Assembly (NCBI RefSeq): GCF_001305575.3
Contig: NZ_CP012373.2
Span: 1,736,001 to 1,800,000 of the forward strand
DNA: 64,000 bases
Source: Beggiatoa leptomitoformis
GTDB lineage: Bacteria; Pseudomonadota; Gammaproteobacteria; Beggiatoales; Beggiatoaceae
Reading direction: 5' to 3'
Positions within the stretch are counted from its first letter, which is position 1. Each line of letters starts with the position of its first letter. This document shows, one piece after another, positions 12,962 through 18,819 of this stretch. Position numbers and translations under genes: made by a program. The notes beneath the pieces were generated by a model that did no database searches, had not been told where the DNA came from, and was given only the letters and a program-made list of their open reading frames with translations.

Positions 12962-13657
12962 TTATTCGCGCGTCGAAAATCGATAACCTACTCCGCGCAC
13001 GGTTTGAATTAAATAATCATAATTATGATCAGCTAACGCTTTCCGTAAACGGCGAATATGAACGTCGACAGTTCGTTCTTCAATATAAACATTTCCACCC
13101 CATACTTGGTCTAATACTTGGCTACGGCTATAAACCCGTTCAGGATGGCGCATAAAAAAGTAAAGCAAGCGAAATTCTGTAGGGCCCATTTGTACTTCTT
13201 GCCCTGCAATTGTTACGCGATGTTCATTAGGGTCTAGGCGTAATTCATTAACCGCAAGCTGTTCACCTTCCGAATGGGTAGAAGCACGTCGTAACACCGC
13301 TTTAATCCGCGCAACTAATTCTCGTGGCGAAAAAGGCTTGGTAACATAGTCATCCGCACCCACTTCTAACCCCCGAATTTTATCGCTTTCTTCACCACGA
13401 GCCGTTAGCATAATAATAGGAATTTCTTGCGTTTGTGGTTCTTTTTTTAGTTGGCGCGCAAATTCTATACCGCTAACTTTATTAGGTAACATCCAATCTA
13501 ATAAAATCAATTTAGGTAGTTGGTTAAAAATTAAGGTCTGTGCTTGACGGACATCAGCCGCTTCTGTGACGATAAACCCCGCTTTACTCAGGGCAAGGTT
13601 TAACATTTCCCGAATAGGGGCTTCATCTTCAACAATAAGAATAGGTTGCTCTGACAT
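12962..13657 (-). CDS. phoB: Phosphate-regulon response regulator PhoB
   Basis: A 231-residue OmpR-family regulator. The receiver domain has acidic residues at 10-11 (VEDE), the phospho-acceptor Asp54 (LILLDWMLP) and Lys in [11 protein letters not shown]. The winged-helix domain carries [12 protein letters not shown] and [16 protein letters not shown], as in PhoB. I chose the ATG at 13657 because the protein then begins [12 protein letters not shown]; the frame extends to 13723 but that would overlap mutM. No phoR kinase is adjacent. It is downstream of mutM and close to btaAB, whose promoter has a Pho box, which supports a phosphate-sensing role. A strong terminator follows it. Confidence 0.85.
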
Positions 13658-13701: not shown

Positions 13702-14517
13702 TTATGTCTGACAATGCGGACAATAATACGTTGCTCGTTGTCCAAGTATGATACGTTCAATTGGTGTGTTACAGGTTACACAGGCTTGCGTGGCACGGTC
13801 ATAAACCCGCAAGGTTTGGCTAAAATAACCCGGTTCACCTTGGGTATTAACAAAATCACGTAAGGTTGTCCCTCCCATTGCGATTGAAGCAGTTAATACT
13901 TCGCGTATCGTACTGGCAAGCTGCTCATAACGGGTTAACGTAATCTCGCCCGCCGCGCGAGTCGGGTGAATGCCTGCTAAAAACAGGGATTCACTCGCAT
14001 AAATGTTGCCTACCCCAACTACAACATGGCTATTCATAATAAAGGTTTTGACGGCAAGCTGTTTTTTACCTGCTTTTTGTTGTAAGTACTTGCCCGTAAA
14101 TTCATTTTCTAAAGGTTCAACGCCCAAACTTGCAAGCAATGGATGCTGTAAAACAGGTTCACTTGTCCATAACACACAACCAAAACGACGCGGGTCGTGA
14201 TAACGCAGGCTAAACGTTTGTCCAAACTGGATTAAAACATGGTCGTGTTTTTTCAGTGGGGTATCAGGAGAGACAATGCGTAAACTGCCCGACATGCCCA
14301 AATGAATAATTAAATGTCCCGTTGGATATGCAAACAGTAAATATTTACCTCGTCGTTGAATATGTTGCAGGGGCTGTCCTAATAGATGTGTTGCAAGGTC
14401 TGACGGCACTGCCCAACGCAAGCGCGATTCACGAACATCAATAGCGGTAACAGTGCGCCCTTCTAAGTGCTGCGCGATGCCTCGGCGAGTGGTTTCAACT
14501 TCAGGTAATTCGGGCAT
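13702..14517 (-). CDS. mutM: Formamidopyrimidine-DNA glycosylase (Fpg/MutM)
   Basis: A 271-residue base-excision repair enzyme that removes 8-oxoguanine and ring-opened purines and nicks the abasic site. After removal of Met1 the N-terminus is the catalytic [16 protein letters not shown] contains the catalytic lysine. [17 protein letters not shown] is the helix-two-turn-helix, and the C-terminal zinc finger has the pairs CVTC and CPHC. The length is normal. It starts 3 bases after the stop of the DUF2157 gene and runs up to phoB, so the three genes probably form an operon. Confidence 0.95.
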
Positions 14518-14520
14518 GAT

Positions 14521-15549
14521 TTAATGACGTATGCGTTGTTGAGGAAGTAAATATTTTAGAGAACGCGGCAATTTTTGTTGTATGACCTCGTTAAAATAGG
14601 TTACATACCGTTGATATTGCACGCCTAAAAAAATCACACTTAAGCCTATCAAGGTTAAAATAAAAGGAAATAGCATCGAGTCGGCAAACACGCGATAAGA
14701 TAAATGTCCCACATAAATCAAAATACCTAATGCCCCAAAAATCACAAATACCTTGCGTTGTAATAATACTGATAGAATAAGTAAACTAAGATTGACAATG
14801 AGATAAAGCACCCGTTGTAATTCCTGTTCAGTATCCATCAATATCAACGTAACACTGACCCAAAACGCTAACATGCCAAATAAATATCCCCAAAAGGCGT
14901 AATCTTCACGAGTACGGCGGTCAACTAAATAACTTCCCAACAACATAATAACGCCAAAATACAAGGTAATCGCTCGTTCAACTTGCCAACTAAAGGCGGC
15001 TTCACCACCAAAAATAGTCGGTATCAGTTCTATGGATAAAAACCAACAAGCAAAAGCAATGGGAGCTGTTAGGAATGGGAATGGCACAAACTTCAGTGTA
15101 ATAACGCCAACAATGATAGTGCCAATGGCCATCCAAATGCCACGTTGTGGGAACAAAAAGCTTATATTTTCTTGTTGTTCTAGCAACAGTTGAACGCCAA
15201 AAACGGCAAGCGGTGTCATACAAACAGCTAAGGTAAACAGTAACCCACCTGCTACCCGTTGTTGGGGCTTTTGCCAACAAATACTCCCGAGCAAGATAAA
15301 CAGTAAAGCGTACACCGTCGCAATGCCAATAATGCCAAGACTGCCAAATAGTTGCCATGCCTCAGATAAAAACCACGTCATCGCACACAGTACCAGAAAC
15401 GCACCCAAAAAATAGGCAATATTTGCCATATTAAATTGGGGTTGTGTTTGTCGACTGGTTAAAAACTGCCACAAGGACGTTGCTTGTGTTGCATCGAGAA
15501 TGCCTTGTTTAACCGCATCTTGAATGTCTTGTTGGGAAACTTGCATCAT
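14521..15549 (-). CDS. DUF2157-type polytopic membrane protein
   Basis: A 342-residue protein. A short soluble N-terminus (about 1-40, VSQQDIQDAVKQGILDATQA) of the DUF2157 type is followed by roughly nine to ten hydrophobic segments, and ends with a basic tail. The function of the family is unknown. It heads the operon with mutM and phoB. AGGT lies 6 to 9 bases before the paired ATGs at the start. Confidence 0.75.
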   Translation of the reverse strand: MMQVSQQDIQDAVKQGILDATQATSLWQFLTSRQTQPQFNMANIAYFLGAFLVLCAMTWFLSEAWQLFGSLGIIGIATVYALLFILLGSICWQKPQQRVAGGLLFTLAVCMTPLAVFGVQLLLEQQENISFLFPQRGIWMAIGTIIVGVITLKFVPFPFLTAPIAFACWFLSIELIPTIFGGEAAFSWQVERAITLYFGVIMLLGSYLVDRRTREDYAFWGYLFGMLAFWVSVTLILMDTEQELQRVLYLIVNLSLLILSVLLQRKVFVIFGALGILIYVGHLSYRVFADSMLFPFILTLIGLSVIFLGVQYQRYVTYFNEVIQQKLPRSLKYLLPQQRIRH

Positions 15550-15700
15550 CGAAGACCTATTTTTTTAAGCATTAAGGGAAATTAGGTCTAAGCGTAACAA
15601 GGAATGGTTTGATTCACAATTTGCTTTGTAGATTGCAATACATCACAGACAACACCGCCTTGAGCAGCGTTATCTGTTTACTAACGTAACAAACAGCAGT

Positions 15701-16345
15701 TTATTTTTTCTTAAAACGCGCTAAAAACGCATAATGTCCGCCCAACCCGCGTGTGGTTAGCGTGCCAAGCTCTTGTTTTTCCATATTTTCTAAATAAGGC
15801 AATAAATCAGGTGGATAATGTACGCCAAACAAATCAAGCCAACGAGTTAGCACATATTGAAACCAGCGGGGTAAATCACGTTGGTCAGAAAAATCAACGA
15901 TATGTAACTCGCCACCCGTTTTTAAATTCTGTAATGCCGCTTGTAAGGCTTTTTGCCAAGGCGGAATCATGGATAACGCATAAGAAAAAAAGATTTTATC
16001 AAACGGCTTATCTATATTAAACAGCTTGTTATAATCCAACTCTTCCGCTAAAGCTTGAACTAGATGAATATTTTTTGCGTCAGTGTTTTTCTCTACTTTT
16101 TGCTGCGCCGTAACCAGCATTTCGTTAGACGCATCTAAACCATAAAACTGTGCATTAGGATAACGCTTTGCGAGGAGCAACAAATTTCGTGCTGTACCAC
16201 AACCCATTTCTAACACCGTTTCACCTGCCTGTACAGGCATTTCACGAATGAGCGTATCGCGTCCAAATAAATAATATTTACGAGTTATATCATAGATATA
16301 CCGTTGATAACGATACATCTGATCCATTGCTTGCACTTGGTCCAT
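15701..16345 (-). CDS. btaB: BtaB-like methyltransferase (betaine lipid N-methylation)
   Basis: A 214-residue class I methyltransferase: VLEMGCGTARNLLLLA is motif I, FYGLDASNEML motif II, and IFFSYALSMIPPW follows. BtaB methylates diacylglyceryl-homoserine three times with SAM to give the betaine lipid DGTS. The assignment rests on the immediately upstream BtaA-like gene on the same strand and the phosphate-type promoter before that gene. On its own sequence it could be any lipid or quinone methylase. GAGG lies 9 bases before the ATG. Confidence 0.75.
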   Translation of the reverse strand: MDQVQAMDQMYRYQRYIYDITRKYYLFGRDTLIREMPVQAGETVLEMGCGTARNLLLLAKRYPNAQFYGLDASNEMLVTAQQKVEKNTDAKNIHLVQALAEELDYNKLFNIDKPFDKIFFSYALSMIPPWQKALQAALQNLKTGGELHIVDFSDQRDLPRWFQYVLTRWLDLFGVHYPPDLLPYLENMEKQELGTLTTRGLGGHYAFLARFKKK

Positions 16346-16397
16346 ATTTTCAATCCTCTTTCAAATTGGGGCGAATGGATACGCCCCAACTGATGCA

Positions 16398-17624
16398 CTA
16401 AGCAAATGAATAAATATGGAAACCGCCATAAATCGCCGAGCGGTCTTGTTTAAACAGCTCTTTAGAACGTTCTTCTTCATAAACAAAACGGGAGCGTAAA
16501 GACGCAGGCAATGCCTTTTCAATAGGTGATTCGGGAGACGCGGTGCGGAAAATAATGCGCGTGCCTTCTTTACCAACCCGTGCGATTTCTTGCCACAATT
16601 CGGTTAAGGCTTCTGGTGTCATCCAATCTTGTGAATCAAGAAAAACGAAACGGTCTAAACTGGCATTCGGCTGTTTACGCAGGCAACCCATTAATGAAGT
16701 CACATGGGTTTCAACACGATGTACATTTTCTTTCAAAACATCAAAATGTTCAGCTTTCAAATAATCAGGCAATGCAACCCGTTGTTTATGGTCATAGCTT
16801 GAGCTAAAGGCTTGCCATGCAAAGTAATTATTTTCTATTGGAAATTGGCAAGATAAACGTCTTACACGCTCACGGTATAGATTGACTAAATTGCCTTGTG
16901 ATTCCTCTTTCATATAATCATACTGCTGTGGAGGAATCCCTAAGCTAAAGACTGCAAAGGAAAAATTGCCGATTAATTTTACAACCCAATAATCAAATAA
17001 AGGGGCGATTTCTTCTGCAAAGATTTTTTCTTGGTCAGCGACAGAATTAGCGTGCAAAATTTTGCCTAAATCATAACCCGCAATTTTGGATAATCTGTGC
17101 AAAAAGCGCATGAAATAACCAAAGCGGGCTTGACGATATAAGCCTTTTGTAAAAAAATTAATTCGCGCGGAGGATTTCGTTAAAAACGTCTTATTTTCCC
17201 AAAAAGCAATGGCTTCTGGGTCTAAATGTGGTTTGATGTGGGTTTTGTATTTTTCTACATTATCAGGACGATTGCCATAACCGAAAAAGTCATAAAAATC
17301 ATCGTATTTTGGTAAATTAGCCAATGCAGCTAATTTAAAACGAGTTAGGTGCATGTGATATTGATTCAAGTCCACTGCAACAATGGCTGCAGGGCGTTCA
17401 ATCAAATAATTTAAAATATTACAACCACCAGAGGCAATTGTGAGAATGCGGCTATCTGATGTTAGTTGTAAGGCTTGTAAATCAACGTTGGGATCTTCCC
17501 ATATCTGATTGTAAACAAAGCCATTAAACCAAAAACTGAATAAACGCTCTAATATGCCTTGACGACTCATTAATTCATTTTGATGAACCGCCGTTTTTAG
17601 TAACTCAGCAGACACTGCACTCAT
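16398..17624 (-). CDS. btaA: BtaA-like SAM:diacylglycerol 3-amino-3-carboxypropyl transferase (DUF3419)
   Basis: A 408-residue protein of the DUF3419/BtaA family. QIWEDPNVDLQAL near residue 40 is characteristic, followed by a SAM-binding segment ILTIASGGCNILNYL and VAVDLNQYH. The C-terminal part has RFVFLDSQDWM and RIIFRTASPESPIE. BtaA transfers the aminocarboxypropyl group of SAM to diacylglycerol, the first step of phosphorus-free betaine lipid synthesis. Bacteria use it to replace phospholipids when phosphate is short. The gene precedes btaB and is preceded by a Pho box at 17679-17696. Confidence 0.85.
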   Translation of the reverse strand: MSAVSAELLKTAVHQNELMSRQGILERLFSFWFNGFVYNQIWEDPNVDLQALQLTSDSRILTIASGGCNILNYLIERPAAIVAVDLNQYHMHLTRFKLAALANLPKYDDFYDFFGYGNRPDNVEKYKTHIKPHLDPEAIAFWENKTFLTKSSARINFFTKGLYRQARFGYFMRFLHRLSKIAGYDLGKILHANSVADQEKIFAEEIAPLFDYWVVKLIGNFSFAVFSLGIPPQQYDYMKEESQGNLVNLYRERVRRLSCQFPIENNYFAWQAFSSSYDHKQRVALPDYLKAEHFDVLKENVHRVETHVTSLMGCLRKQPNASLDRFVFLDSQDWMTPEALTELWQEIARVGKEGTRIIFRTASPESPIEKALPASLRSRFVYEEERSKELFKQDRSAIYGGFHIYSFA

Positions 17625-17662
17625 GTTTTCTTTCCCGTCACGGTGTTTGTATGATCTTAACG

Positions 17663-17696
17663 ATACTAATCAATCTAAATGACGCTTTGATGACAG
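17663..17696 (-). promoter_or_regulatory. Pho-box promoter of btaAB
   Basis: On the minus strand CTGTCATCAAAGCGTCAT (17696-17679) matches the two 7-base half-sites of the PhoB box (CTGTCAT, 4 bases, CTGTCAT) with two mismatches in the second half. Ten bases downstream is a -10-like TAGTAT (17668-17663). This is the spacing expected when PhoB replaces the -35 element. The btaA ATG is 55 bases from the box. PhoB is encoded 4 kb away. Confidence 0.72.
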
Positions 17697-17868: not shown

Positions 17869-18819
17869 TTAAAAAGTTCCTTCTGCTTGTTTATCCGCAT
17901 GATAAGAAGAACGTACCAATGGCGCACTAGCAACTTGTTTAAAGCCCATTTGTTTGGCTGTTTCTCCCAATTCTTTAAATTCTTGAGGAGTAACATAGCG
18001 TTGTAATGCTAAATGATGTTGGCTAGGTTGCAAATATTGCCCTAATGTCAACATATCGCAATCATGCGTGCGTAAATCCGCCATGACCGCCTGTACTTCT
18101 TCTAGCGTTTCTCCTAGCCCTAACATCAAGCCTGATTTTGTTAATACATCAGGATGTTGCGCTTTATACTGTTTAATAAGGTTTAATGACCACGCATAAT
18201 CTGCTCCCGGACGTGCTTGTTTATATAAACGAGGAACGGTTTCTAAATTATGATTAAAGACATCAGGAGGGGCTTGATGCAGAATTTCTAAGGCTTTTTC
18301 TAGCCGTCCGCGAAAATCAGGGACTAATACCTCAATGCGTGTTTTTGGCGATAATTCTCGAATCGCGCTAATACATGCTACAAAATGCCCAGCTCCCCCG
18401 TCGCGTAAATCATCACGGTCAACGGATGTAATCACCACATAATTCAGTCCCATATCAGCAATTGTATGGGCTAAATTTATCGGCTCATTTTCATCCAATG
18501 GTTCAGGACGACCATGCGCAACATCACAAAAAGGACAGCGACGAGTGCAAATATCACCCATAATCATAAAAGTTGCTGTTCCGCCTGAAAAACACTCGTT
18601 TAAATTAGGGCAAGAGGCTTCTTCACAGACAGTATGCAATTGATGTGTACGGAGTTTATCCTTTAAATCGCGCACGGCTGAGCCACTTGGCACACGAATG
18701 CGTATCCATTCTGGTTTACGTTGCGGTTCAGCGGGAACAACTTTAATGGGAATACGTGCAGTTTTATCCGCACCGCGTTGATGCTTACCAATTTCAACAG
18801 ATTTGGATGGATTATCCAT
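17869..18819 (-). CDS. lipA: Lipoyl synthase LipA
   Basis: A 316-residue radical-SAM enzyme that inserts two sulfur atoms into protein-bound octanoate. The auxiliary cluster motif C-x4-C-x5-C is [12 protein letters not shown]. The radical-SAM motif is [10 protein letters not shown] (C-x3-C-x2-C). The C-terminal RSSYHA contains the serine that ligates the auxiliary cluster. lipB is not next to it. The gene is full length. Confidence 0.96.

Follow-up and report, generated by a model that had tools for sequence, protein, structure and literature searches.

A betaine-lipid gene pair behind a partly conserved Pho box in Beggiatoa leptomitoformis points to probable phosphate-controlled lipid remodelling in a sulfur oxidiser

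The chromosome of Beggiatoa leptomitoformis carries a DUF3419 gene directly followed by a methyltransferase gene, and this locus raises the question of whether the two form the betaine-lipid pathway btaAB and whether their expression answers to phosphate. The analysis considered the whole stretch of 64,000 nucleotides in which the pair lies (the window) and the genome to which it belongs, a single contig of 4,265,317 bases. The preliminary description, made from the letters alone, had taken the organism for a sulfur-oxidising gammaproteobacterium, which was right, since it belongs to the family Beggiatoaceae. It is considered very probable, from the sequence evidence presented here, that btaAB is a phosphate-starvation lipid-remodelling operon under PhoB control that makes DGTS, and Beggiatoa probably swap membrane lipids in this way when phosphate runs out. 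The features concerned are the following:

12962-13657, minus strand: phoB, the only gene in the genome over the curated PhoB cut-off
13702-14517, minus strand: mutM (fpg; TIGR00577, NF002211), between btaAB and phoB and outside the pathway
14521-15549, minus strand: gene of a DUF2157 membrane protein (PF09925), a neighbour
15545-15710, minus strand: intergenic stretch behind btaB that holds two hairpins, one of them of 15 pairs
15701-16345, minus strand: btaB, 214 aa, class I methyltransferase, predicted SAM-dependent N-methyltransferase making DGTS
16398-17624, minus strand: btaA, 408 aa, DUF3419, predicted SAM:diacylglycerol 3-amino-3-carboxypropyl transferase
17663-17668, minus strand: -10 element TAGTAT, ten bases after the Pho box and kept in the congener
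17679-17696, minus strand: Pho box CTGTCATCAAAGCGTCAT, 18 bases, 54 bases from the btaA ATG
17869-18819, same direction as btaA: lipA-like gene, named by eye, upstream neighbour

The genes on the minus strand follow one another in the order btaA, btaB, DUF2157 gene, mutM and phoB. Because the lipA-like gene ends 244 bases before btaA, the pair is probably transcribed from its own promoter. At the other end of the pair, the stretch 15545-15710 folded with -38.2 kcal/mol (z -3.1; 1 of 200 shuffles equally stable), no T-run terminator was called there, and its hairpins are a possible end of the btaAB transcript. The stem sequence occurs a single time in the window.

Both the box and the TAGTAT ten bases further on were found where the preliminary description had placed them. 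The arrangement at btaA, with direct half-sites spaced by 11 bp, then ten bases and then the -10 element, follows the spacing rule derived from E. coli pho promoters. The btaA box was the only exact match to CTGTCATNNNNNYGTCAT in the window, in which up to 2 mismatches gave 7 matches against 2.1 expected. Scored against CTGTCATNNNNCTGTCAT, the E. coli consensus, it reached 12 of 14, a value that none of 300 dinucleotide-shuffled versions of the 350 bp upstream of btaA attained. Moreover, among the 44 ORFs of at least 150 aa in the window, btaA alone had a score of at least 11 on the coding strand within the 250 bp upstream. When the upstream DNA of the two Beggiatoa species was compared, it aligned poorly until the box and was nearly identical from there through the -10 element.

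A scan of the whole genome for the same box, of the kind that had been put forward as a check, found 7 exact matches to TGTCATNNNNNYGTCAT (2 for the reversed pattern used as control), with pstS and phoX among the genes that follow. The single congener in the sample (4.3 Mb) gave 5 (control 0), so that the 12 matches, two of them overlapping, correspond to 11 distinct sites in the two species together. All five congener sites had counterparts before the same genes in B. leptomitoformis, namely btaA, phoX, metX, a gene for a CBS-domain histidine kinase and a small membrane-like ORF; gene families were profile-tested in B. leptomitoformis and matched by eye in the congener. An exact match preceded pstS in B. 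leptomitoformis only, the congener pstS having a near miss of 11 of 14. As pstS and phoX, both well-known phosphate genes, carry the box pattern, it can be read as that of a Pho regulon.

The regulator that this reading calls for is encoded in the genome. PhoB, taken with one extra N-terminal residue, scored 355 bits against TIGR02154 (cut-off 296), and its C-terminal DNA-binding domain aligned closely with that of E. coli PhoB (3t72/1qqi) over a stretch that we take to include the recognition helix. PhoR was found above its curated cut-off 0.93 Mb from phoB, and the genome holds, with the DNA-binding domain kept, both proteins of a PhoB regulon. Box conservation, the pattern shared with pstS and phoX and the E. 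coli-like DNA-binding domain of PhoB together support regulation by PhoB, and, as far as sequence can tell, phosphate control of btaAB is well supported, in agreement with the link to phosphate limitation that had been drawn from the box.

The position of phoB had also been brought into that argument. The distance from the end of btaB to the start of phoB is 2.04 kb, as described (about 2 kb), and the identity of phoB was confirmed by the TIGR02154 score. Its nearness is nevertheless a weak regulatory argument and was rejected as evidence, for it is peculiar to the genus: among the 9 btaA genomes with PhoB above the cut-off, only the two Beggiatoa species have phoB near btaAB and phoR elsewhere, the Beggiatoa gene sitting behind DUF2157 and mutM, whereas in the other 7 phoB stands just before phoR on a contig other than that of btaA. 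A Pho box of at least 11 lay in front of 3 of the 9 phoB genes read (G014 13, G015 12, G030 11), and an own box before phoB was not found in Beggiatoa. In principle, transcription running on from the btaA promoter could raise phoB, which is no more than a thought given the stable hairpin between btaB and DUF2157.

The reading that fares best among the alternatives, itself unlikely, accepts the box as real and assigns it to another OmpR-type regulator, or to PhoB answering another signal, with btaAB then induced by something else, such as sulfide or oxygen stress. The genome is rich in response regulators and histidine kinases (at E 0.001, 125 matches to the PhoB model and 93 to the PhoR model), and the CBS-domain kinase behind a Pho box could add inputs; against this, only one regulator exceeds the PhoB cut-off, and the pattern preceding pstS and phoX is identical to that at btaA.

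With phosphate control by PhoB as the preferred reading, what the pair would make depends on the identity of its two proteins. The naming of btaA and its methyltransferase partner in the preliminary description held up in profile searches. Residues 30-405 of BtaA aligned to PF11899 (DUF3419) with 349 bits against a cut-off of 28.2, and this full-length homology places it, by sequence, in the DUF3419 family, which we take to cover tested BtaA. It shares 43% identity with a DUF3419 protein of Rhizobium leguminosarum whose gene also adjoins a methyltransferase gene. An AF2/AlphaFold model of BtaA had a pLDDT of 85, and Foldseek returned weak matches to SAM-dependent methyltransferases and spermidine synthases, the best at E 4e-3 and none at E 0.001 or better; such matches fit a SAM-using transferase and prove little. 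BtaB matched Methyltransf_31/25 and was 45% identical over 207 aa to the methyltransferase encoded behind the btaA homologue of a record from Sinorhizobium meliloti, in which the btaA match is split in two and lacks annotation. In 10 of the 10 family genomes with btaA, the gene is followed by btaB, a predicted BtaB-type methyltransferase gene.

Taken together, a mechanism can be proposed in which PhoB binding, enzyme activities and lipids are inferred. When phosphate is short, phosphorylated PhoB would bind the two 11-bp-spaced half-sites before btaA, which would replace a -35 element 10 bases ahead of TAGTAT and turn btaAB on. BtaA would then transfer the 3-amino-3-carboxypropyl group of SAM to diacylglycerol, and BtaB would complete DGTS, a membrane lipid free of phosphorus, by three methylations. 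The diacylglycerol would most likely come from phospholipids, cleaved by an unlinked PlcP-like enzyme, and an OlsB-like acyltransferase encoded behind tandem Pho-box half-sites might add ornithine lipid.

The candidates for these accessory steps were named PlcP, Agt and OlsB by homology, PlcP and Agt also by context, and their Pfam families were checked. A gene for a PlcP-type metallophosphatase adjoins one for an Agt-like glycosyltransferase near 2.79 Mb, unlinked to btaAB; the PlcP-like protein fell far below the LpxH cut-offs (36 vs 190 bits and 41 vs 134). Of the 10 btaA genomes, 9 had a strong PlcP-like homologue (at least 61% identity, the next-best match having 27%), against a single one of the remaining 32, so that the co-occurrence over 42 genomes was 9/1/1/31 (Fisher p 2e-7, not kinship-corrected). 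In two of these genomes, G025 and G030, plcP directly follows btaAB. The box before plcP in B. leptomitoformis, at 10 of 14 with a shuffle p of 0.18, was weak, and only 3 of 10 plcP genes had one of at least 11. As for the acyltransferase, it is called OlsB-like only because the curated OlsB models were not reached (163 bits against a cut-off of 320, and 152 against 350). In both Beggiatoa species its gene is preceded by tandem 11-base-spaced half-sites, with a best pair of 12 of 14 in each.

It could also be argued that the DUF3419/methyltransferase pair makes a different aminolipid or another methylated product, not DGTS, and this is held to be quite improbable, somewhat more so than the use of the box by another regulator. 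To our knowledge, no BtaA or BtaB member from Beggiatoaceae has been tested; a search for PDB relatives of BtaA by sequence gave none at E up to 1, and the Foldseek matches were weak. Conversely, the two proteins are 43% and 45% identical to the rhizobial pair, btaA co-occurs with PlcP-like genes, and S. meliloti btaA and btaB are assigned to DGTS synthesis in passages of two articles (PMC8829014, PMC3972451).

The synthesis of DGTS under PhoB control being the preferred reading, its reach was followed through a family sample of 42 genomes from 25 genera, the number of genera that GTDB Beggiatoaceae have according to a passage of PMC11172852. Full-length btaA was present in 10 of these genomes (8 genera), and two further genomes had weak partial matches below the cut-off. 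The btaA box scored at least 11 of 14 in five of the ten: G021 (12, shuffle p 0.007), the two Beggiatoa genomes G000 and G001 (12 each, p 0 each), G025 (11, p 0.007) and G014 (11, p 0.03). A sixth, G030, scored 10 and was not significant by itself (p 0.10), and that of G006 was doubtful (9, p 0.34). In G019, G005 and G015 (8 each, p above 0.9 each), no box was found within 350 bp upstream of btaA. The box was thus kept in the congener and three further genera, so in four of the eight that carry btaA, and is not family-wide. The six best boxes aligned on TGTCAT and GTCA around an A-rich centre, the half-sites of G021 being placed differently by the aligner. In that genome the box lies 219 bases from the start codon, against 52-81 in the others, and boxes precede both btaA and pstS; PhoB and PhoR above cut-off were not found in its assembly, which is 92% complete. 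As a yardstick, the PstS-like genes of the same ten genomes were scored, and 7 of 10 had a box of at least 11, these genes having been found in 9 of the 10 genomes with TIGR00975 below its cut-off; PstS of B. leptomitoformis passes TIGR02136. That btaAB is constitutive, with a box arisen by chance and DGTS as a housekeeping lipid, draws on the 3 of 10 btaA genomes without a box and is very improbable, the least credible of the alternatives, in view of the shuffles, the conservation across genera and the genome-wide specificity.

The box before metX opened a further lead. It scored 13 of 14 in B. leptomitoformis and 12 in the congener, lies 108-109 bases before the start, and its spacer letters differ between the two species; MetX passes the MetX homoserine O-succinyltransferase model. 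Each DGTS molecule takes four SAM: one gives up its aminocarboxypropyl group, a step that drains the homoserine skeleton, and the other three supply methyl groups. Given this demand, a raised flux from homoserine to methionine would make sense in phosphate stress. It is therefore suggested, as a tentative idea that is rather less probable than its negation, that the Beggiatoa Pho regulon took in metX, so that phosphate starvation raises the supply of methionine and SAM along with btaAB. If true, metX would form a precursor branch dedicated to betaine-lipid remodelling, a novelty within a response already known. As a family-wide trait the metX box was rejected: among the 30 metX loci read, from 39 genomes with a match and with the btaA genome G014 left out, a score above 10 of 14 occurred in 2 of 9 btaA genomes and 0 of 21 others, and the box was absent in the 28 loci of other family genera. 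No riboswitch was found before metX or btaA in 4 loci searched against Rfam at E up to 1. An inverted, hairpin-like repeat lies between the Pho box and metX in both Beggiatoa species.

In the BtaA tree, the Beggiatoaceae sequences formed one clade (97/97) among those of Planctomycetes, Verrucomicrobia and Acidobacteria, with no donor resolved. The tree had 58 rows, among which two pairs are duplicates under different names: 50 loci, 6 sequences from the family, that of the window, and a single rhizobial row, which sat on a long branch. The 50 loci were thinned by hand from 80. Two peptide patterns drawn from the family alignment had turned up 194 relatives, of which these were the best 80; since relatives were picked in this way, other BtaA types are under-represented. 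BtaA as a rarity in the class was rejected, as DUF3419 exceeded its cut-off in 23 of 274 sampled genomes, B. leptomitoformis included. The contexts of gammaproteobacterial btaA, in which an end motif recognised the btaA ORF in 3 of 18 loci, allow no generalisation.

The mechanism is already known from Alphaproteobacteria, and what is new is its occurrence in Beggiatoaceae. The rhizobial and Rhodobacter btaAB resemble the Beggiatoa genes in the pairing and the gene order, besides the identity to the rhizobial proteins given above. A passage of PMC8829014 lists S. meliloti btaA and btaB among the highly induced core genes of phosphate stress; the Beggiatoaceae BtaA, by contrast, form a separate clade. 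For the PlcP/Agt/BtaAB system of marine heterotrophs, Sebastian et al. (PMC4796936) describe plcP-agt placed apart from btaAB, as in Beggiatoa, and also plcP joined to btaAB; in the joined form plcP stands before the pair there, whereas in Beggiatoaceae it comes after. Beggiatoa differs from these heterotrophs in being a filamentous sulfur oxidiser with a Pho box before metX too. In Pseudomonas, according to passages of PMC5082522, PHO control of lipid replacement likewise operates in a gammaproteobacterium, with the PlcP, DagK, OlsA and OlsB proteins seen, whereas in Beggiatoa btaAB is the clearest Pho target.

Within the open-access literature searched on betaine lipids, DGTS and the Pho regulon in Beggiatoa, and on betaine and intact polar lipids in Thiomargarita and Beggiatoa, no title dealt with the pathway in the group, and the words phosphate and lipid are both absent from the main text of the comparative genome paper of B. 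leptomitoformis. Pho control of btaAB thus appears, in that literature, to be unreported in Beggiatoaceae. Large sulfur bacteria store polyphosphate and release phosphate, and given this storage and release, a response to phosphate shortage written into their genomes is relevant to the times and places at which phosphate limits them. The presence of btaAB in 10 of 42 Beggiatoaceae genomes also makes a bacterial source of the betaine lipids of mats testable. In a passage on seep mats (PMC5326789), the source of these lipids was called unknown, algae were pointed to and phosphate limitation was held unlikely. Caution is advised where the betaine lipids of sulfide mats are taken as a marker of eukaryotes alone.

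Two further sites of the putative regulon deserve mention. In both Beggiatoa species the gene for the CBS-domain histidine kinase stands directly behind an exact Pho-box pattern, and through this kinase a second signal may reach the phosphate response. Likewise in both, two short ORFs, the first of 31-33 aa and membrane-like and the second of 63 aa, lie behind the pattern, and the site in G000 consists of three half-sites in tandem.
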